Below, piece by piece: positions 5,775-59,369 of a stretch of 64,000 nucleotides of DNA. The position numbers were made by a program, and so were the translations under genes. The stretch's first letter is position 1. Every line of letters begins with the position of its first letter. The stretch spans positions 109,664,582-109,728,581 of the forward strand of contig NC_079213.1 in assembly GCF_029633865.1 (NCBI RefSeq), in the 5' to 3' direction. Origin of the DNA: Lampris incognitus (taxonomy: Eukaryota > Chordata > Actinopteri > Lampriformes > Lampridae). The notes under the pieces are model-generated. The model saw nothing but the letters and a program-made list of their open reading frames with translations, did no database searches and had not been told where the DNA came from.

Positions 5775-7011
5775 CTACTACTACTTTCGGCTGCTACCGT
5801 TAGGGGTCGCCACAGCGGATCATCCGTTTCCATTTCTTTCTGTCTTCTGCATCTTCCTCTGTCACACCAGCCACCTGCATGTTCTCCTTCACCACATCCA
5901 TAAACCTCCTCTTTGGCCTTCCTCTTCTCCTCTTCCCTGGCAGCTCCATATTCAGCATCCTTCTCCCAATATACTCAGCATCTCTCCTCCACACATGTCC
6001 AAACCATCTCAATCTTGCCTCTCTTGCTTTGTCTCCAAACCGTCCAACCTGAGCGGTCCCTCTAATATACTCGTTCCTAATCCTGTCCTTCTTCGTTACT
6101 CCCAGTGAAAATCTTAGCATCTTCAACTGTGCCACCTCCAGCTCTGTCTTTTCGTCAGTGTCACTGTCTCCAAACCATATAACATAGCTGGTCTCACAAC
6201 CATCTTGTAAACTTTCCCTTTAACTCTTGCTGGTACCCTTCTGTTGCAAATCACTCCTGACACTCTTCTCCACCCACTCCACCCTGCCTGCACTCTCTTT
6301 TTCACCTCTCTACTGCACTCCCCGTTACTTTGGACGGTTGACCCCAAGTATTTAAACTCATATGCCTTCGTCACCTCTACTCCTTGCATCCTCACCACTC
6401 CACCGTCCTCCCTCTCATTCTGTCTTGCTCCTACTGACTTCCATTCCTCTTCTCTCCAGTGCATACCTCCACCTCTCCAGGCTCTCCTCAACCTGCACCC
6501 TACTCTCGCTACAGATCACAATGTCATCCGCGAACATCATCGTCCATGGAGACTCCTGCCTGATCTTGTCCGTCAACCTATCCATCACCATTGCAAACAA
6601 GAAAGGGCTCAGAGCCGATCATTGATGTAATCCCACCTCCACCTTGAACCCATCTGTCATTCCAACCGCACACCTCACCATTGTCACACTTCCCTCATAC
6701 GTATCCTGCACCACTCCTACATACTTCTCTGCAACTCCTGACTTCCTCATACAATACCACACCTCCTCTCTCGGCACTCTGTCATAAGCTTTCTCTAAAT
6801 CTACAAAGACACAATGCAACTCTTTCTGGCCTTCTCTATACTTCTCAAACAACATTCTCAAAGCAAACATCAAGTCTTATTTATGATCCGCATATTTGAT
6901 TTGGCAAAGATTTTTCGCCGGATGCCCTTCCTGACGCAACCCTCCCCATTTGTCCGGGCTTGGGACCGGCACTGAGGATGCACTGGCTTGTGCATCCTCA
7001 GTGGCTGGGTT
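5775..7011 (-). mobile_element. RTE-clade LINE copy 1, internally deleted, 16-bp target duplication
   Basis: Flanked by TAAATTTAGCAATGGT at 5759..5774 and 7012..7027, an exact 16-bp duplication inside the older L2 LINE. Minus-strand frames show RT motif A (VDLEKAYDRVPREE, near 6800), motif C (MMFADDIVIC, near 6520) and the C-terminal stretch RGTAQVGRFGDKAREARLRW (near 5960-6040); the 3' end is at 5775. The far end (about 6890..7011) is the family's 5' UTR: its reverse complement reads GTCAGGAAGGGCATCCGGCG then TTTGCCAAATC, as at 24220..24300. The endonuclease and early RT are missing. The copy therefore keeps both real ends but has a large internal deletion. Premature stops make it non-coding. 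Confidence 0.88.
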
Positions 7012-7027
7012 TAAATTTAGCAATGGT

Positions 7028-18358: not shown

Positions 18359-19321
18359 CTGATGCTGAAAGCACTTTAAATCACGTGTCTTTGCCCTGGC
18401 CGGTATATTTAAGCATGTAGCCCATCATTTACTATATATTAATACCTCCCCCGTCTCAGTGGAGGGTAGGACGGCAGGCTCAATGGTCGGCGCTGAGGCA
18501 GGTTGGGGTGGTGCAGATCCTGGGGGGGTGGGGGGGGTCAAGGGGGACGTGTCCCCTCCAACTTCTGAAAAACATGAAGTTGCCCCCCCCCCCCATAAAT
18601 TATTTCTAAATAAATTATGTAATTGAAAAAAAATGTATCTAATAGAATCATAAATCAGATTTCCATACCGGATCGGTCGAGGCCCGGGTTAGCAACGACT
18701 GCCACCAGTGCTGTTGGCCTGCAGGGTGCTGGTGGAAACTATGCTACTGTTAGGCGAAGGAGAAGGAGAGGGAGAAGGCATGTCCAGGGGCAGCGGGAGA
18801 GGAGGAAGGGCAGGAGCGTGGAGGAGAGCGTCGTCAGTAAATCTGAATGTTGGCACTGTGACTGGTAAAGGGAGAGAGCTGGCTGATATGATGGAGAGAA
18901 GGAAGGTAGGCATACTGTGTGTGCAAGAGACCAGGTGGAAGGGGAGTAAGGCCAGGAGTATCGGAGGTGGGTTCAAACTCTTCTACCATGGTGCGAATGG
19001 GAGGAGAAATGGGGTAGGGGTCATTCTGAAGGAAGAGTATGTCAAGAGTGTGCTGGAGGTGAAGAGAGTGTCAGACAGAGTGATGAGTATGAAGCTGGAA
19101 ATCGAAGGTGTATTGCTGAATGTTATCAGCACATATGCCCCACAAGTTGGGTGTGAGATGGAAGAGAAAGAAGAATTCTGGAGTGAGTTGGACGACGTGG
19201 TGGAGAGGGTACCCAAGGAGGAGAGAGTCGTGATTGGGGCGGACTTCAATGGGCATGTTGGTGAAGGGAACAGAGGTGATGAGGAGGTGATGGGTTGGTA
19301 TGGTGTCAAGGAGAGAAATGT

Positions 19322-20230
19322 CAAGTCAAGCCAATTAGGTTTTATTTGTCCCCAGAGGGGTAATTGTTGTGTAGCAGTGGCAACATTTAAACACACAAAC
19401 ACTCCACAGAACACATAAGGCAAATAAATACAAATAAAGACAACATGTAGTGAGGAGAACAAAGCCAGCGAAAAGCAACGCAACAGTAAACAGTGTGAGC
19501 AGTGTTTATCAAGGTGGAGCTGGTGGTACCTCTTACTATTGGAGTTTAGCAGTGAAATGGCTGAGGGAATGAAGGAGTGTTTGTACCTGTTGGTTTTGAC
19601 TACTGGGTATTTGAAGCGGGAACCAGAAGGCAAGGTCTGAAACTCTAGGTGTGTGTGTTTGTGTGTTTGTGTGTGTGTGTGGGGGGGCTGTCAGACGGGA
19701 TGGATTCTGCTTTCCTTAACATCCGCTTGTTATATAAATCAGAGAGACTTTTCTGTTGGGTACCTGTGACACTACTGCAGACCTTGAGCACTTTTGTTAG
19801 TGCATTTTTCTGTTTAAGATTGAGAGAGGCGTACCGAATCAATAAAAGATCCCTAGAACAAAGTCATCAGGGCCCTGTCGACACCGAACTTAGCCAGCTT
19901 CCTCAGACAAAAAAGGCACTGCTGGCTTTTTTTGCATAGCAAATTGGTATTACAATCAAAGTTCAGCTTGTTATCAAGTATAGTGCCCAACTACTTGTAT
20001 GACTCAACAATTTCAACTTCATGACAGGACTAAATGCAAAGAGTCAAGAGTATCAAGTGAACTCGCTAGTTTACACTATGGGAGACTTGAAGATGTGCCT
20101 AGTAAAAGGTCAACGTTATGCCTTGGTCTCCAGTCCATTCATTACTAATATAAGTGCTATAAAGTACAAGACAATGACCATTAATCTTAGTTTTGACTGG
20201 GTTGGTGGGATTATGTCTAAAGTCAATCCC
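19322..20230 (-). mobile_element. 5'-truncated Rex1/L2-like LINE 3' end nested in the RTE LINE
   Basis: On the minus strand it reads LPSGSRFKYPVVKTNRYKHS and SFIPSAISLLN, the C-terminus of a fish Rex1/L2-type LINE protein, followed by a 3' UTR ending CTTGACTTGACA. The host LINE is interrupted between its NV and EGQM codons; AATGT occurs at both edges (19317..19321 and 20231..20235). A (GT)n run lies at about 19650..19680. The upstream part to 20230 is LINE sequence with no intact frame. Confidence 0.75.
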
Positions 20231-26810: not shown

Positions 26811-27764
26811 TACAACGCAACCACATAAAGTGCCGCGGCCGGGAGGCGAACCCGTGTCGCCCGCACCGCAGGGGGCGTCGCTAACCGCTAGACTAAAGGG
26901 TCAGACCCGCCAGCGGCCAGCCTGTCCTCTTATCCATGCACGTTACACTACCCCCCCTCCTCCCCCTCCTTCGGGAAGCGCGTCCCCGCTATCAGCTCCT
27001 TCACGCCTCAGGAGGTCATAGGCTTCCGATGGCCTTACGGTCTTCTCCTCATCCCACTTCTGACACCAACGTAGCGAATTCGGGGGGAACAACGCAACCA
27101 CAGGAAGTGCCGCGGCCGGGACGCGAACCCGCATCGCCCGCACCGCAGGGGTTATCGCTAACCGCTAGACTAAAGGGTCAGATTCGCCAGCCAGCGGCCA
27201 GCGTGTCCTCTTATCGATGCACGTTACATTACCCCCCTCCCCCTCCTTCGGGAAGCGCGTCCCCGCTATCAGCTCCTTCACGCCTCAGGAGGTCATAGGC
27301 TTCCGATGGCCTTACGGTCTCCTCCCCATCCCACTCCTGACACCAACGTAGCGAATCCGGGGGAACAACGCAACCACAGGAAGTGCCGCGGCCGGGACGC
27401 GAACCCGCATCGCCCGCACCGCAGGGGGCATCGCTAACCGCTAGACTAAAGGGTCAGATTCGCCAGCCAGCGGCCGGCGTGTCCTCTTATCGATGCACGT
27501 TACATTACCCCCCTCCCCCTCCTTCGGGAAGCGCGTCCCCGCTATCAGCTCCTTCACGCCTCAGGAGGTCATAGGCTTCCGATGGCCTTACGGTCTCCTC
27601 CCCATCCCACACCAACGTAGCGAATTCGGGGGGACAACGCAAGCACAGGAACTGCCGCGGCCGGGACGCGAACCCGCACCGCAGGAAACATCGCTAACCG
27701 CTAGACTAAAGGGTCAGACCCGCCAGCCAGCGGCCAGCGTGTCTTCTTATCCATGCGCGTTACA
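26811..27764 (-). mobile_element. Head-to-tail array of a miniature LTR element (TRIM-like), LTR family 2
   Basis: Reading the minus strand, the order is LTR-internal-LTR-internal-LTR-internal-LTR. The LTRs lie at 26811..26947 (outer end lost), 27070..27228, 27347..27504 and 27616..27764. They start TGTAACG(T/C)GCAT and end GAATTCGCTACG. Internal parts of about 110-125 bp begin TGGTGTCAG(A/G)AGTGGGAT next to the LTR, a primer-binding site fitting a leucine tRNA 3' end, and end in a purine tract (CTTCCCGAAGGAGGGGG) before the next LTR; the internal at 27505..27615 has lost most of the primer site. Each LTR holds a tRNA-like core: A box TAGTCTAGCGG (matches TRGYNNARNNG) and a B-box-like GGTTCGCGTCC, which the 27616..27764 copy has partly lost. 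No coding capacity. Such arrays arise by unequal recombination between LTRs. Confidence 0.88.
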
Positions 27765-36039: not shown

Positions 36040-36600
36040 TTACAATTTCATTTAGCAGACGCTTTTATCCAGAGGGATGTACGTCTGAGAGTTAACACAA
36101 CACAAGCAAGAATCTAGGCAGGAGACAGCAACTCAAGTAAAAACTAGATTCAAGTCCAATAGGACATCGGTGTCAACAGGCAGTGCACAAAGGCAAAGGT
36201 GCATAGAAGTGATTTTTTTATGCATTTGTTTATTTTTAATACCATCAGGTGTGGAGGTGTTTGAGAAAGAGCTGGGTCTTTAGCTGTTTGTTAAAGATGG
36301 AAAAGAGCTCGGCAGATCGAATGGAGTTTGGTAACTCGTTCCACCACCGGGGAACCACAGAAGACAAGAGTCTGGCTAGTGACTTAGGGCCCCGTTGTGG
36401 CGGAAGGGCCGGGGGCCTTTCACTGGCAGAGCGTCGTGAGCGGGGCTGAGTGTAGACCAGAATGGGGGAGTTCAGGTAGGAGGGAGCCGTTTTAGTTGCT
36501 GTTTTGCAAGCGAGCATTAAGGTTTTGAATTGGATACGGGCAGCTCCTGGGAACCAGTGGGGGGATAGGAACATCACAGCATGCAACACTCTAGTTAATG
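36040..36600 (-). pseudogene. LINE 3' end, 5'-truncated
   Basis: The minus-strand frame 36245..36589 reads AARIQFKTLMLACKTATKT, APSYLNSPILVY, SVVPRWWNELPNSIRSAE and NKQLKTQLFLKHL, the conserved C-terminus of a fish L2-like LINE ORF2. The 3' UTR to about 36040 contains AGACGCTTTTATCCAGAGGG. The upstream RT is missing. Confidence 0.8.
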
Positions 36601-37486: not shown

Positions 37487-37633
37487 TGTAAGCTACTAAA
37501 AAAAAGACTCACTGGCCAAAGGGCCAGGAGATCGGCCTCTTTGGTCGTGCGGTTAGCGATGTCGCCTCCCGGTGCAGTACAACACTGGTTCGAATCCCGC
37601 AGCGGGCGGAAATATGCTCGTTGCTCGGTTACA
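37487..37633 (+). mobile_element. Solo LTR, family 1, with tRNA-like core
   Basis: TGTAAGCTACTAA to GCTCGGTTACA, 147 bp, TG...CA ends. The core has TTGGTCGTGCGGTTAGCG (A-box-like) and a perfect B box GGTTCGAATCC 40-45 bp downstream. It aligns end to end with the reverse complement of 38024..38158. No LTR target duplication was recognised. Confidence 0.72.
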
Positions 37634-38023: not shown

Positions 38024-38158
38024 TGTAACCGGTTATTTTCTCGCCCGGTGCGGGATCCGACACGGGGTGTACTGCACCACAAGGCGACATCACTAACCGC
38101 TCGGCTAAAGAGTCAGATCCGTTAGCCAGGGGCTAACGTGTCTTATTAGTAGTTTACA
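38024..38158 (-). mobile_element. Solo LTR, family 1
   Basis: On the minus strand it runs TGTAAACTACTAATAAG to ACCGGTTACA, 135 bp, with CTTTAGCCGAGCGGTTAG (A box) and GTGTCGGATCCCGC (degraded B box). Flanked by TATATA on both sides, so the insertion was into a TA tract. Confidence 0.75.
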
Positions 38159-38167
38159 TATATATAT

Positions 38168-38317
38168 TGTAACGTGCATGGCTAAGTAGACACGTTGGTC
38201 CTTGACTAACGGTTTAGGCCCTTTAGTCGACTGGTTAACGTTGTCGCTTGCGGAGTGGGAGACACGGGTTCTCGTTCTGGCTGTGGCGGTTCCGGGCTGC
38301 CCCTTAATTCGCTACTA
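38168..38317 (+). mobile_element. Solo LTR, family 2
   Basis: TGTAACGTGCATGGCTAAG to AATTCGCTACTA, about 150 bp. Diverged tRNA-like core (TTTAGTCGACTGGTTAACG; GGGTTCTCGTTC). TATAT on both sides is compatible with a 5-bp target duplication. It lies ten bases from the family 1 solo LTR in opposite orientation. Confidence 0.72.
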
Positions 38318-39575: not shown

Positions 39576-39647
39576 TGATTGGACAATAGGTATTTCATGA
39601 GTGCTGATACTCATTCAGTATAACAGCACTGGGACTTTTAACCATAT

Positions 39648-40071
39648 TGTAACGTGCATGGATAAGAAGACACGCTGGCCGCTGGCTGGCGGGTCTGACT
39701 CTTTAGTCGAGCGGTTAGCGACGCCTCCTGCGGTTCGGGCGACACGCGTTCGCGTCCCGGCCGCGGCAGTTCCTGTGGTTGCGTTGTCCCCCGAATTCGC
39801 TACATTGGTGTCAGAAGTGGGATGGAGCGACCGTAAAGCCATCGGAAGCGCATGCGCCCTGAGGCGTGAAGGAGCTGATATGCTTAAGCGCGGGGACGCG
39901 CTTCCCGAAGGAGGGGGGTAGTGTAACGTGCATGGATAAGAAGACACGCTGGCTCGCGGGCCTGACCCTTTAGTCTAGCCGTTAGCGACGCCTCCTGCGG
40001 TGCGGGCGATACGGGTTCGCGTCCCGGCCGCGGCAGTTCCTGTGGTTGCGTTGTCCCCCGAATTCGCTACA
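39648..40071 (+). mobile_element. Complete miniature LTR retrotransposon (TRIM-like), LTR family 2
   Basis: Left LTR 39648..39804 (157 bp) and right LTR 39922..40071 (150 bp) both run TGTAACGTGCATGG to GAATTCGCTACA. The 117-bp interior starts with primer site TGGTGTCAGAAGTGGGAT (39806..39823), which fits a leucine tRNA 3' end, and ends with the purine tract GAAGGAGGGGGGTAG (39907..39921). It has no gag or pol. Each LTR holds an exact A box (TAGTCGAGCGG in the left copy) and a one-mismatch B box (GGTTCGCGTCC in the right copy), about 45 bp apart. The 5-bp flanks do not match, so it may be a remnant of an array as at 26811..27764. Confidence 0.9.
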
Positions 40072-40174
40072 ATGTGTATCACTCCGCCGCACAGGTGTTC
40101 TGTTAATAACCGTTAATTAGCCTACATTAATGGTCGTTATCAATATCAGATTGTAACAAGCTTGCACGGCAAAG

Positions 40175-40569: not shown

Positions 40570-40689
40570 AAAGCTCATCGATTGACCGGACATCGTGTCT
40601 GCTGGCCTCGTTATGGATCGAAACGCTTCAGAATACGGGTTCGCGTCCCGGCTGCGGCAGTTCCTTGTTCGTCCCCCGAATTCGCTACA
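40570..40689 (+). mobile_element. LTR fragment, family 2, 5' part lost
   Basis: Contains ACGGGTTCGCGTCCCGGC and ends CCCCCGAATTCGCTACA like the LTRs at 39648..40071. The A-box half is eroded. The hAT MITE that follows used its last bases (CA) as part of the target. Confidence 0.75.
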
Positions 40690-42606: not shown

Positions 42607-42980
42607 CCATCGATCCATTGTCTTAACCGCTTGTCCTGCTCTCAGGGTCGCGGGGGTGCTGGAGCCTATTCCAGCAGTCATTGAGTGGCAGGCGGGGAGA
42701 CACCCTGGACAGGCCGCCATGCCACCACAGAGTCGACACACACACACACCATTCATTCCTAGGGACAATTTAGTACCGCCAATTCACCTGACTTACATGT
42801 CTTTGGACTGTGGGAGGAAACCGGAGCCCCTGGAGGAAACCCACACAGACACGGGGAGGGCATGCAAACTCCACACAGAGGATGACCCGGGATGACCCCC
42901 AAGGTTGGACTACCCCGGGGCTCGAACCCAGGACCTTCTTGCTGTGAGGCGACCGCGCTAACCACTGCACCACCGTGCTA
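42607..42980 (-). mobile_element. tRNA-derived SINE, CCATCC-tailed family, full copy
   Basis: On the minus strand the head reads TAGCACGGTGGTGCAGTGGT then GTTCGAGCCCC (B box), the body includes TTTGCATGCCCTCCCC, and the tail is (GGAT)n at 42607. Flanking TATATATAT on both sides suggests insertion into a TA microsatellite. Fragments of the family: 11208, 16085, 32065, 59877. Confidence 0.88.
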
Positions 42981-45193: not shown

Positions 45194-45367
45194 TGCTGGC
45201 TTTAGCTGGTCTGGCCTCCCGGTAGAATGCCGGTCACTTACATATATTTGAAAACACAAAAACTATGGCGGTTAGGGTTAAGGTTAGGTTTAGGGTAGTT
45301 TTTGTGTTTTCAAATATATGTAAGTGACCGGCATTCTACCAGGAAGCCAGACCAGCCAAAGCCAGCA
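45194..45367. repeat. Long hairpin with telomere-like loop
   Basis: Arms of about 73 bp (45194..45266 and 45295..45367) are near-perfect inverses, including TTTGAAAACACAAAAACT and GGTAGAATGCCGGTCACTTA. The loop reads GGTTAGGGTTAAGGTTAGG then TTTAGGG, degenerate TTAGGG repeats. Probably a fold-back MITE; no flank duplication was found. Confidence 0.9.
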
Positions 45368-52373: not shown

Positions 52374-55222
52374 CCCAGCAAACAAAAACGTCCCCAGCAC
52401 GTCCCCTAAAGGTCCTCCCCGAACGTCCGGTAAATGTCGTCGTGTAGCGTTTTCATGACGTCACGGGGACATTATTGCGGGACATTTTTTGTTTGTTGGA
52501 CGTTTTTTTGTTTACCTAACTTCCCGCAATAACATCCCCATGACGTCCTGGGGACGTCTAGAAGACTTTCCCTTAATGTCCCTGTCATGTCCGAACGTCT
52601 CGCAATAACATCCCCATAATGTCCCGGGGACGTCTAGAAGACTTTCCCCTAACGTCCCTGTAATGTCCTAATGTCCCGCAATAACATCCCCGTGACGTCC
52701 TGGGGACGTCTAGAAGACTTTCCCCAAACGTGCCTGCAATGTCCTAATGTCCCACAATAACATCCCTGTGACGTCCCGGGGACATCTAGAAGACTTTCCC
52801 CAAACGTCCCTGTAATGTCCTAATGTCCCACAATAACATCCCTGTGACGTCCTGGGGACGTCTAGAAGACTTTCCCTTAATGTCCCTGTCATGTCCGAAC
52901 GTCTCGCAATAACCTCCCCATAATGTCCCGGGGACGTCTAGAAGACTTTCCCCTAACGTCCCTGTAATGTCCTAACGTCCCGCAATAACATCCCCATGAC
53001 GTCCTGCGGACGTCTAGAAGACTTTCCCCTAACGTCCCTGTAATGTCCTAATGTCCCGCAATAACATCCCCGTGACGTCCTGGGGACGTCTAGAAGACTT
53101 TCCCCTAACGTCCCTGTAATGTCCTAACGTCCTGCAATAACATCCCCGTGACGTCCCGGGGAAGACTTTCCCCTAACGTCCCTGTAATGTCCTAACGTCC
53201 CACAATAACATCCCTGTGACGTACTGGAGACGTCTAGAAGACTTTCCCCTAACGTCCCTGTAATGTCCTAACGTCCCGCAATAACATCCCCGTGACGTCC
53301 TGGGGACGTCTAGAAGACTTTCCCCTAACATCCCTGTAATGTCCTAACGTTCTGCAATAACATCCCCGTGACGTCCTGGGGACGTCCAGAAGACTTTCCC
53401 CAAACGTGCCTGCAATGTCCTAATGTCCCACAATAACATCCCTGTGACGTCCCGGGGACATCTAGAAGACTTTCCCCAAACGTCCCTGTAATGTCCTAAT
53501 GTCCCACAATAACATCCCTGTGACGTCCTGGGGACGTCTAGAAGACTTTCCCTTAATGTCCCTGTCATGTCCGAACGTCTCGCAATAACATCCCCGTGAC
53601 GTCCCGAGGACGTCTAGAAGACTTTCCCCTAACGTCCCTGTAATGTCCTAACGTCCTGCAATAACATCTCCGTGACGTCCCGGGGACGTCTACAAGACTT
53701 CCCCCTAACGTCCCTGTAATGTCCTAACGTCCTGCAATAACATCCCCGTGACGTCCCGGGGACGTCTAGAAGACTTTCCCCTAACGTCCCTGTAATGTCC
53801 TAACGTCCTGCAATAACATTCCCGTGACGTCCCGGGGACGTCTACAAGACTTTCCCCTAACATCCCTGTAATGTCCTAACGTCCCGCAATAACATCCCCA
53901 TGATGTCCTGCGGACGTCTAGAAGACTTTCCCCTAACGTCCCTGTAATGTCCTAATGTCCCGCAATAACATCCCCGTGACGTCCTGGGGACGTCTAGAAG
54001 ACTTTCCCCTAACGTCCCTGTAATGTCCTAACGTCCTGCAATAACATCCCCGTGACGTCCCGGGGACGTCTACAAGACTTTCCCCTAACGTCCCTGTAAT
54101 GTCCTAACGTCCTGCAATAACATCCCCGTGACGTCCCAGGGAAGACTTTCCCCTAACGTCCCTGTAATGTCCTAACGTCCCGCAATAACATCCCCGTGAC
54201 ATCCCGGAGACGTCTAAAAGACTTTCCCCTAACGTCCCTGTAATGTCCTAACATCCCGCAATAATGTCCCCGGGACATTACGGGGACGTCTAGAGGACTT
54301 TCCCCTAACGTCCCTGTAATCTCCTCAGGACAATGTCCCGCAATAACGTCCACGGGACGTCTAGAGGACTTTCCCCTAACGTCCTTGTAATGTCCTCAGG
54401 ACAATGTCCCGCAATAACGTCCACGGGACGTCTAGAGGACTTTCCCCTAACGTCCTTGTAATGTCCTCAAGACGTTACAGGTGTGTCGGCTCTGAAGATG
54501 GGGTCGGCTTTGACCCACTTCCAAAAAAAAAAAACTTTGCCACTGGCCACTACAAAAATAATTACGTTCATTTACAAACTCAAAAGATCCAAACTTGTTT
54601 CTAAATTAACATAATAAAGAAACAAAAAGACCCCTTATGGCACGAAACAAACTTAAATCGCGACAGCGGTCAAAGGACTTTTTGCTACCGCCGCTTCAGT
54701 CACCCGACATTTAGCGTCCAACCCCTCTGGCTACCAACAATGGCTCCCCCTGCTGGGCGTCTCTCTCCAAGTTATATACCCAGCTGACGAGGGATTGCGA
54801 TCACCTGGGGTTTAACCAGCAGCTCCACAGGGGGAGGGGCTTTACCCGGAGAGGGGCATTTACACATACACACGGCACTAGGGCCGTAACACCCCCTCCC
54901 ATAACCAGCAGGGGTCGTGTGCAAAGGTGCACACCCAGCTTCTATCACACCAGAAATCAACGCAATCCATAACAAACAATAATATACACTATACAGTAAT
55001 AAACAGATTCATATATTACACTTCCTTTGAATACATTTGAAGGAATAACACAAGCGCAAAGGCATTTACCAAAAGCAAAATGAACGGCTGCGACAACAGG
55101 GACGTGCCGCAATAACGTCCCCCTTGATGTGGTGAAAACACTACACAATGACTTACTGGAGGTTCAGGGAGGACTTTCAGGGGACGTGCTGGGGACGTTT
55201 CTCTTTTTCTTTTTTTGCTGGG
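52374..55222. mobile_element. DNA element with ~110-bp inverted ends, filled by a minisatellite
   Basis: The left end (CCCAGCAAACAAAAACGTCC, CCAGCACGTCCCCTAAAGG) is inverted at the right end (CCTGAAAGTCC-type bases, GGGGACGTGCTGGGGACG, TTTTTGCTGGG), with similarity for about 110 bp. The interior is the 76-bp array (52500..54475) plus 600 bp of unique sequence. Clear flank duplication was not seen and no transposase is encoded. Superfamily unknown. Confidence 0.7.
52500..54475. repeat. 76-bp minisatellite, about 26 units, ACGT-rich
   Basis: Unit consensus begins GTCCTAACGTCCCGCAATAA and includes CATCCCCGTGACGTCC, TGGGGACGTCTAGAAGAC and TTTCCCCTAACGTCCCTG. Several units lack about 15 bp. Segment 52710..52910 recurs about 676 bp downstream (from 53386), so blocks of about nine units were duplicated. 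The last units (54260..54475) are a distinct, shorter variant. Reading frames through it are artefacts. Confidence 0.95.
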
Positions 55223-57007: not shown

Positions 57008-59369
57008 TTAAAATCGCAGGTGTCCAACGCCTGTAAATACTGCAACACCTCGGTGGTAGTCATGCTGCGTCTCAAACGGCGGCTGTTGGCCGTATAGGTG
57101 CATCAGCCTTTGCTGCCATGTCTTCTGCAGGCAGAAGAGCAGCTTAGTGGAGGAGCCATCATCTTCTTCCTGACTGGGTCGGTATTTGATCTGGCAGTCA
57201 TGGAGTGCTGTCCACTAGCCCCTATAAATTCATATAAAGCTTGTCTTATTATAGGCATTGGCTTTGGTCACATCCTAGTTCAAACATATTCTACCTAATA
57301 TGGGGAGAGTGGCCTACATTATTCAGTGGCATGAAGGCTGAAGCTAAATGCAACCAATTTTGTTTCAGTTCTATAAAAACATCTCCTACCAACAGCTATG
57401 TTACCTGCAGATTGACTTGGTCAATGCTTGACTGTCTTTTGGTCTCCTTTGTCTTCCTGATTAGATTTCTGATGTCTTTATCAAGGGGGTAAAACCTCCT
57501 CCTTGTTGGCGGAGGGGGAGCCTCTCCTCTGAACAGCTCAGACACAAAGATCAAGATGTGTCTCCTGACTTCACTGACTTTCCTAGCACCAAACAAGGCT
57601 AACTTTGCAATGTGCCTCTGTATCCTGGGGTCCACTGACTCACGGACCTCAGCTGCCTAAAGCGAGCAACACATTATCATGTCTCTTTCAGAGAATCACT
57701 GGAACGCTTTGATTATGCAATTCTTCATATAAAAACAACAGATTTCTATGTCAGTCCTAAAAGTAAATGATGTAGGCATTGCAACTGACCTCTCCTACCA
57801 CCGGATGGTTTTTGTGCTCCTCGATCTCTGGGAAGCATGCAACATACTGCTCCTCAAACTTTACAGCCGAGGGGTTTGTTGCTAGTAGGAATTTTGGTAA
57901 CACTTTATTATGGGGAACATAAAAACACTTAATTACTAGTGAATTAGTAATGATCAAGATGTCACTTTAGTATGGGGAACATATGCTAAGTAACAAAAAC
58001 TTAATTTAGAGTAATTTAACACTATTAACACTTGTAGTTTTGCGTGTTGTTATGTAAGAACAGACCATATTCATTAAGTGTTACTAGGGGAGAATAACTC
58101 TTCTTGTGGTACTACCACCTTATAAAGGCCATACTAAGCAAAGCATATTGAGATGGTACTACTAATAAGCAATAATTCTGAGGTTATAGAGGGAAAACTC
58201 ATAGTTAATGGCTTACTGGTTGTATAATAAGGCCATGCAGAATAAGACATTAATGAGTACGTAATAATGACCAATTAAGAACCAATATGTTGCTAATTTG
58301 CATGCTAATAAGCACCTAATTAATGGTGACTACATTCCCCATACTAAAGTGTTACCGGAATTTTAAATGTTTGGCGCTCTCCGTCCTCTGTTTCTGCAGT
58401 TCCCCAGGTATCTGAAAAACAAACAATACTGAAGCAATCCTGCTTAAGAGGCAGTAAAATAGATAGGGCACTGTAAGAATAGGTTGTGCCTATTGATTAA
58501 ATATTAACAAAGAAAATAATTGAAAATACCTTGTGACCAGGGAATCTGATCAGATGGCCTACAAAGATTCTGGCTGGGCAGTCCAATTTCTTCGAATCCT
58601 GAAGAATACGTCTCCTCTCTGTACAAGAGTGGTCTGAGTGGTCTTCAAGCTAAGGAGAGATATGGAAAGAATAACATTACTGAAAATACACCCTGCATAA
58701 TGCCAGAACAGAAGTACAAAACCACTATTCAAATTGTTTATTTACATACCAGTGGTGGTTGTTGTTTTGTCTCCTTTATTTTTAATTTTTTTGTTTGTTT
58801 TTGTCTTTACCCTGGTGGCAAGGGTACACCTTCCTTCCTACTGCCACCATGAAGGGTACTCCATCAAACAGCACGTATTTGAGCGCCCACATTATTTTCT
58901 TCGATCCAGGTTTGGGATCTGTGAGTGAGTTGGCTAGAGTTCATCAGTGGCCTAATATTGCTATTACATTAACGTTAGCCAACATCAGCCATGTTCCTCA
59001 GAATATGCATGGACAGTGAGCACTTATTATATTTATTGTATTGTTGTATTTATTGCATTAATTGTATTTATGTATTATTATATTTACATCTGTTCGTCGC
59101 TTTGGATAAAAGCGTCTGCCAAATATAAGTAATGTAATGTAATAATGTAATGACAGTCTGTTGCTAGCCTAACGTATAACGTTAGATATAGTTGACTAGC
59201 ATTTAACGTTAGCTGACTATGACAACTCACCCTGCTGACCAACGACAGTTTGTCGTAACGACAAATTTCGCGAGTGTTTCCTCCCCCAATTTATTTTCTT
59301 TAAATTTCCCTCAAACAACTGATATGAAGGGAAACTTTGAAAGTAGCCGGTGTCTTCTTCTGCCGCCAT
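57008..59369 (-). CDS. Six-exon CARF/ALS2CR8-like gene, exon 4 split by a MITE
   Basis: Reconstructed by eye from GT/AG sites with matching phases: exon 1 59231..59369 (ATG at 59369, donor GTGAGT), exon 2 58811..58918, exon 3 58530..58642, exon 4 58357..58411 plus 57790..57887, exon 5 57405..57656, exon 6 57008..57190 (TAA). Without the MITE and one target copy, the total is 948 nt, 315 codons plus stop, no internal stop. Exon 3 has SKKLDCPARIFV and IRFPGH; exon 4 has TNPSAVKFEEQYVACFPEIE and EHKNHPVVGE; exon 5 has RKVSEVRRHILIFV and YPLDKDIRN. These match the pattern of the calcium-responsive transcription factor (ALS2CR8) domain, also found joined to MULE transposases in fish. Exon 6 has LLFCLQKTWQQRLM but ends before any catalytic core. 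The inserted 469 nt shift the frame, so this allele is probably broken unless the MITE is spliced out. Exon 1 and the exon 3 acceptor are the least certain. Confidence 0.6.
57896..58356. mobile_element. hAT-type MITE copy B inside exon 4, perfect 8-bp duplication
   Basis: Ends GGTAACACTTTATTATGGGG and CCCCATACTAAAGTGTTACC; flanks GGAATTTT at 57888..57895 and 58357..58364. It is the inverse of the element at 40696..41227, with one fewer sub-terminal unit. Removing it with one flank restores an in-frame exon of 153 nt. Confidence 0.95.
59030..59155 (+). mobile_element. LINE 3' tail in intron 1
   Basis: CGTCGCTTTGGATAAAAGCG then TCTGCCAAATATAAGTAATG, ending (TAATG)n: the common 3' tail of fish L2-like retroposons. 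Confidence 0.75.

Follow-up and report, generated by a model that had tools for sequence, protein, structure and literature searches.

We found that positions 39648-40071 of the window, by which we mean the whole 64,000-nucleotide stretch of Lampris incognitus DNA analysed, hold a 424-bp element consisting of an LTR, an internal part and a second LTR. It is very probably an LTR retrotransposon of the TRIM type, without genes and non-autonomous, that belongs to the Helenus, or TRIMp3, kind and is abundant in a euteleost fish. The 5' LTR (39648-39804, forward strand, 157 bp, running from TGTAAC to GCTACA) and the 3' LTR (39922-40071, forward strand, 150 bp, without one 7-bp unit that the 5' LTR has) are 90% identical by BLAST, and both have TG...CA ends. 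Between them lies an internal part of 117 bp (39805-39921, forward strand), too small for any retrotransposon protein, which carries a primer binding site of the tRNA-Leu type, TGGTGTCAGAAGTGGGAT (39806-39823, forward strand), complementary at 18/18 bases to what we take to be the 3' end of tRNA-Leu(CAA), and a polypurine tract, GAAGGAGGGGGG (39907-39918, forward strand). Two LTRs of about 150 bp, a leucine-type primer site, a purine tract and an absence of coding DNA had all been claimed in the original prediction, and each was borne out. The flanks of the element, ATAT on the left (39644-39647, forward strand) and ATGT on the right (40072-40075), form an imperfect 4-bp target site duplication (TSD) in which three of the four bases match.

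Insertion of the integrase type, with a 4-bp duplication, was observed directly among copies elsewhere in the host genome (1.48 Gb in 537 contigs). A search with the whole element gave 3143 first-look candidates, and the 40 that were scored yielded at least 45 genomic matches at 92-100% identity. We fetched 39 regions, covering 44 matches besides the window copy, and found perfect 4-bp TSDs at 28 of the 39 places, with none at 5 bp (0/39) and none for any of four offset controls (0/39 each). The perfect duplications were ATAT (17), ATAC (6), GTAT (3) and CTAT (2). All 28, in copies L009-L047, follow the pattern NTAY with a central TA, a narrow insertion preference; two perfect TSDs off this pattern, GTAG (L073) and GTTA (L084), occurred in a second sample of loci retrieved with the internal part as query. 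Three-LTR arrays were present at five of the 39 places, and the window itself contains a tandem array of the same family with four LTRs, the last incomplete, and three internal parts (26812-27764, reverse strand), a 3' LTR fragment (40633-40689, forward strand) and one solo LTR (38168-38316, forward strand). The solo LTR belongs to a divergent subfamily, S1, is 75.2% identical to the 5' LTR and lies in AT-repeat DNA between ATAT/ATAT flanks. Copies of this kind would have been reverse transcribed from a tRNA-Leu primer, with the proteins for copying and insertion supplied by an autonomous Gypsy-type element.

The two LTRs of a new LTR-retrotransposon insertion are expected to be identical, and several copies of this family have unlike LTRs. 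The internal-part query gave 41 matches; apart from locus L023, already in the first sample, and one partial match, these were read as 39 loci and provided 17 complete pairs. In L057, for example, a canonical 5' LTR is paired with an S1-type 3' LTR (79.5% identical, flanks ATAT/ATAT), and in L070 an S1-type 5' LTR is paired with a canonical 3' LTR (80.0%, flanks ATAC/ATAC); a similar mixed pair (77.7%, flanks ATAT/ATAA) was seen in L053, which falls outside the 17 pairs as one LTR is truncated. L057 and L070 share 95.4% identity between their S1-like LTRs, to which the S1-like LTR of L053 is 87.8 and 89.2% identical. With an S1 LTR as query, 30 loci of 40 matches were examined, comprising 17 single LTRs and six S1-internal-S1 copies (both classes partly incomplete), one canonical-internal-S1 hybrid (L094), three loci with one LTR and an internal part, and three arrays or complex loci, among them L113, which mixes both LTR types; within these loci, like pairs are the rule. 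In a third sample, of 20 loci picked from 40 matches, four pairs were mixed by best BLAST type (L120, L129, L130 and L136), the LTRs of L128, flanked by ATAT duplications, carried different alleles at each of the two diagnostic sites, and L119 and L123 had LTRs concordant at both. Among the papers listed by literature searches on unlike LTR pairs, we recognised none as relevant.

The LTRs also differ in the number of 7-bp units. In the first sample, the window copy included, the unit present in the 5' LTR of all 40 copies was missing from the 3' LTR in 26. A directional asymmetry, with a long 5' and a short 3' LTR, was considered and rejected, as the query copy itself has that pattern and as L079, which was sampled through its internal part and has a perfect TSD, shows the opposite order. 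L051 has more of the unit (28 and 35 bases), and this, together with the order in L079, indicates that the unit is a variable minisatellite. When the first and last LTRs were compared in the internal-part sample, window excluded, 21/14 bases were found at five loci (L052, L063, L066, L073 and L076, of which L063 and L076 are also in the first sample) and 14/21 at one (L079), leaving a weak excess of long 5' LTRs.

To count discordance within pairs, we took 39 pairs found with the whole element and 17 found with the internal part, 56 in all, with the window pair excluded; copies with truncated LTRs (L053 among them) and repeat loci were dropped from the internal sample, and arrays were represented by their first and last LTRs. 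At the two transversion sites, the LTRs were discordant in 12/55 (site 62) and 12/51 (site 107) pairs, or 11/54 and 12/50 after removal of one locus that had been counted twice (L021, without a TSD, is the same as L063), and in 6/35 and 7/31 of the two-LTR copies with perfect TSDs. The remaining variable sites were discordant in 11/56 (site 20), 12/47 (site 41), 18/56 (site 77) and 9/54 (site 99) pairs, compared with 203/4686 (4.3%) at other sites; the hybrids L057, L070 and L073 are included both in the perfect-TSD pairs and in this baseline. Binomial p values against the baseline ranged from 0.004 to 1e-6 and are optimistic, as the copies are related and the diagnostic sites were selected for their variability, a bias in favour of discordance. 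Because sites 62 and 107 are both transversions, recurrent mutation is a poor explanation there. Agreement within pairs nevertheless exceeded chance, with kappa values of 0.49 (site 41), 0.53 (site 62) and 0.50 (site 107), and such values, at about one half, indicate that many pairs share a template. Over all 40 copies, LTRs differed on average by 4.3% within a copy and by 5.3% between copies.

Such pairs could have arisen either by template switching among co-packaged RNAs or by later gene conversion. Ectopic conversion after insertion, independent of the copying mechanism, stands at about even chances. Sites 62 and 107 were discordant in different copies, with only one copy discordant at both, and are unlinked across LTRs; this pattern points to exchange of short tracts, in favour of conversion. 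In addition, the three pairs that differed at 0-1 other positions had 0 of 15 diagnostic sites discordant, and over the 53 non-hybrid pairs discordance climbed, non-significantly, with pair divergence (11/69, 32/138 and 27/98; Spearman 0.18, p 0.21). However, the 33 non-hybrid pairs with two LTRs and perfect TSDs showed no such trend (7/40, 18/102 and 8/45; p 0.67), and the LTRs paired in L057 and L070 have an identity that is low for conversion. Alternatively, many TRIM RNAs may be packaged in each helper particle, and frequent intermolecular strand transfer would then give insertions born with unlike LTRs and sometimes LTR-internal-LTR-internal-LTR arrays. We put this forward only tentatively, as a rather unlikely account; its speculative basis is that an RNA of only about 0.4 kb might readily share particles and undergo such transfer. 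If it held, divergence within LTR pairs would be useless for dating, and promoter cores would be exchanged freely among subfamilies. Unlike pairs that arise at birth would break the assumption of LTR identity at insertion on which such dating depends, and would make intermolecular strand transfer in a miniature element readable from the genome.

Each LTR contains a tRNA-like core. In the 5' LTR, an A box, TAGTCGAGCGG (39704-39714, forward strand), is followed by a B-box-like sequence, CGTTCGCGTCC (39747-39757, forward strand), with two mismatches to GGTTCGANNCC; in the 3' LTR, an A box that matches TRGYNNARNNG, TAGTCTAGCCG (39971-39981, forward strand), is followed by a B box with one mismatch, GGTTCGCGTCC (40014-40024, forward strand). 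The original prediction had assigned an exact A box and a near-consensus B box to each LTR at tRNA-like spacing. The spacing, with 32 bp between A and B, is confirmed, but the two boxes quoted were drawn from different LTRs of the window copy: the quoted A box belongs to the 5' LTR, whose B box is poorer, and the quoted B box to the 3' LTR, whose A box is a different one. We searched for A/B pairs separated by 20-60 bp, allowing no more than one B-box mismatch. The window has seven such pairs, five of which lie within this family's LTRs, whereas 40 dinucleotide shuffles of the window gave 0.15 on average. The 3' LTR reached this threshold, as did 2 of 5000 shuffles of it; the 5' LTR of the window copy itself falls short of it.

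Pol III transcription from the LTR is somewhat more probable than not. Initiation would take place upstream of the A box of the 5' LTR and would continue by readthrough. The other reading, that the family is an ordinary TRIM with a Pol II promoter whose LTR holds a decayed SINE or tRNA fragment with no promoter role, seems rather unlikely to us. Among 85 LTRs (the window pair and 83 from the 39 genomic places), 77 have an exact A box, 77 have a B box that is off consensus at no more than one position and 79 retain GGTTC; the A- and B-box counts weigh against an ordinary TRIM. The A-box region is also kept in LTR-like copies within the window that represent more divergent tRNA-core subfamilies, with ends set by eye: one (37487-37633, forward strand) has a canonical B box, GGTTCGAATCC, that matches exactly, and another (38025-38158, reverse strand) has a tRNA-like core. 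On the other side, the copies share ancestry, and conservation within the family is thus weak evidence of selection; in addition, 84 of the 85 LTRs have C at B-box position 7, and only one has the consensus A. The refuting condition set by the original prediction, loss of the A/B-box match in the family consensus, thus gives a mixed result: the A box has been kept and the B box is off consensus at one position nearly family-wide. This C may weaken TFIIIC binding, and Pol III activity is plausible given both the conserved boxes and this departure.

The prospect that the core would fold as a tRNA was not upheld: ARAGORN called no tRNA, an Rfam search of the element gave no tRNA match at E<=10, and none of the minimum-energy folds of three LTR cores was a cloverleaf, results that favour the ordinary TRIM. 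Seven tRNA gene sequences were compared with the 5' LTR, the 3' LTR and one array LTR, using 300 shuffles each. Local similarity to the Asp and Gly genes was reached by 0/300 shuffles for all three LTRs, and that to the Glu gene by 6, 1 and 3 of 300; similarity to the Leu, Lys and Ala genes was not above shuffles. Nor was that to tRNA-Val-CAC (equalled by 39, 101 and 49 of 300 shuffles of the 5', 3' and array LTRs), a result that matters because Kojima (2024; PMC10886601) aligned fish Helenus with tRNA-Val-CAC. TTTT is absent from 39 elements, which carries little weight because it is also absent from 2559 of 5000 shuffled versions of the window copy. Judged from these alignments, boxes and folds, we take the core to be a promoter-like remnant of either a tRNA or a tRNA-derived SINE, and not a tRNA gene.

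A pair of tRNA-derived SINEs mimicking the LTR-internal-LTR order is extremely improbable: such SINEs are likewise short and non-coding with A and B boxes, and two more A/B pairs lie in the window outside the family, but SINEs have no LTRs, no primer binding site and no fixed 4-bp TSD, whereas this family has TG...CA ends, a primer site and purine tract in place, solo LTRs, LTR-internal arrays and the contradicting 4-bp duplications at 28/39 places. The two additional pairs, at 42972/42928 (reverse strand, exact in both boxes) and 34601/34557 (reverse strand), are possibly tRNA-derived SINEs.

The claim of a fish host is supported by a LINE in the window and by RAG1. Among 20 ORFs searched against Pfam, one family scored above its cut-off, a LINE endonuclease; this fragment (18693-19415, forward strand) matches fish LINE proteins, with the best named hits in catfish genomes, and a mobile LINE is no guide to host placement. 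The RAG1 exon of the genome was 88% identical to that of Lates, the best long named hit, and 85% identical to those of Cirrhinus and Aplochiton. In a tree of 18 RAG1 sequences, the host formed a clade with acanthomorphs and Lepidogalaxias (96), joined next by Aplochiton (96), and two cyprinids were set apart from the host clade (100); Ostariophysi were represented by cyprinids only, a low-identity catfish hit having been omitted. RAG1 thus appears to place the host among euteleosts, away from the sampled cyprinids, and its position outside Ostariophysi would rest on one gene and the accepted unity of Ostariophysi.

Several other features were seen in the window. A type-P1 twister ribozyme match (6936-7016, reverse strand) scored 53.3 bits, below the gathering score of 67.2, with E 1.6e-11 in a short search; its conserved core was aligned and it adjoins a dispersed repeat. 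A UnaL2-type LINE 3' element (59079-59132, forward strand) scored 48.8 bits against a gathering score of 55, and a weaker one lies at 36042-36095 (reverse strand). Self-comparison revealed, at 52515-54473, a long tandem satellite whose repeat period is about 76 bp, and a hairpin at 45217-45345 with a sub-threshold microRNA family match on both strands is probably a palindromic miniature transposon. An exact 25-base search of viral contigs gave no matches.

Helenus (TRIMp3) was defined by Kojima (2024; PMC10886601) as TRIMs with tRNA-derived LTR sequence, from fungi, animals and a plant. For vertebrates, Table 1 of that paper gives coelacanth, sterlet, paddlefish, cypriniforms, one catfish and milkfish as hosts; TSDs are of 4 bp in animals, and primers are His, Leu or Lys in vertebrates. 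The fish families include zebrafish LTR-11_DR, with 5575 LTRs and tandem arrays (PMC10886601). The same paper likens Helenus to Cassandra, argues for Gypsy-type help in animals and calls the Pol III promoter function unvalidated. Our literature search on Helenus and its kin had, among the matches listed, only this paper and a 2026 meeting report that mentions Helenus in passing (PMC12859917). By these published features, the Lampris element can with considerable confidence be classified as a TRIM of this kind: it has two LTRs and no coding DNA within 424 bp (<1000 bp), tRNA-like boxes in its LTRs at the frequencies given above, a Leu-type primer site, a purine tract, solo LTRs, tandem arrays and 4-bp TSDs, perfect at 28/39 places, with 0/39 of 5 bp and three of four bases in the window copy. 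It differs in the family-wide departure at B-box position 7, in a host absent from the vertebrates of Table 1, and in its unlike LTR pairs, of which the available parts of PMC10886601 make no mention. The original prediction was therefore right in reading, from anatomy and boxes, a fish TRIM whose LTRs have a tRNA-like core of the Pol III type, parallel to Cassandra, and wrong in supposing that the kind may be undescribed, since Helenus had been published with fishes included (PMC10886601). The element matches the published description, compared feature by feature, in a host outside Table 1; what may be undescribed so far is the lineage of this host, together with its unlike LTR pairs. TRIMs with tRNA promoters are thereby extended to a further fish lineage, in which they are apparently abundant, and this bears on their age and spread in fishes. 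Cassandra of plants similarly has a Pol III-type promoter in each LTR and forms LTR-internal tandem arrays (PMC7215508). Its LTR sequence is derived from 5S rRNA and its hosts are plants, whereas an Rfam search of the Lampris element gave no 5S match at E<=10. Ajax of nemerteans shares with it a small-RNA-gene promoter in TRIM LTRs and a tRNA-Leu primer, but is 5S-derived and has 5-bp TSDs (PMC10886601).
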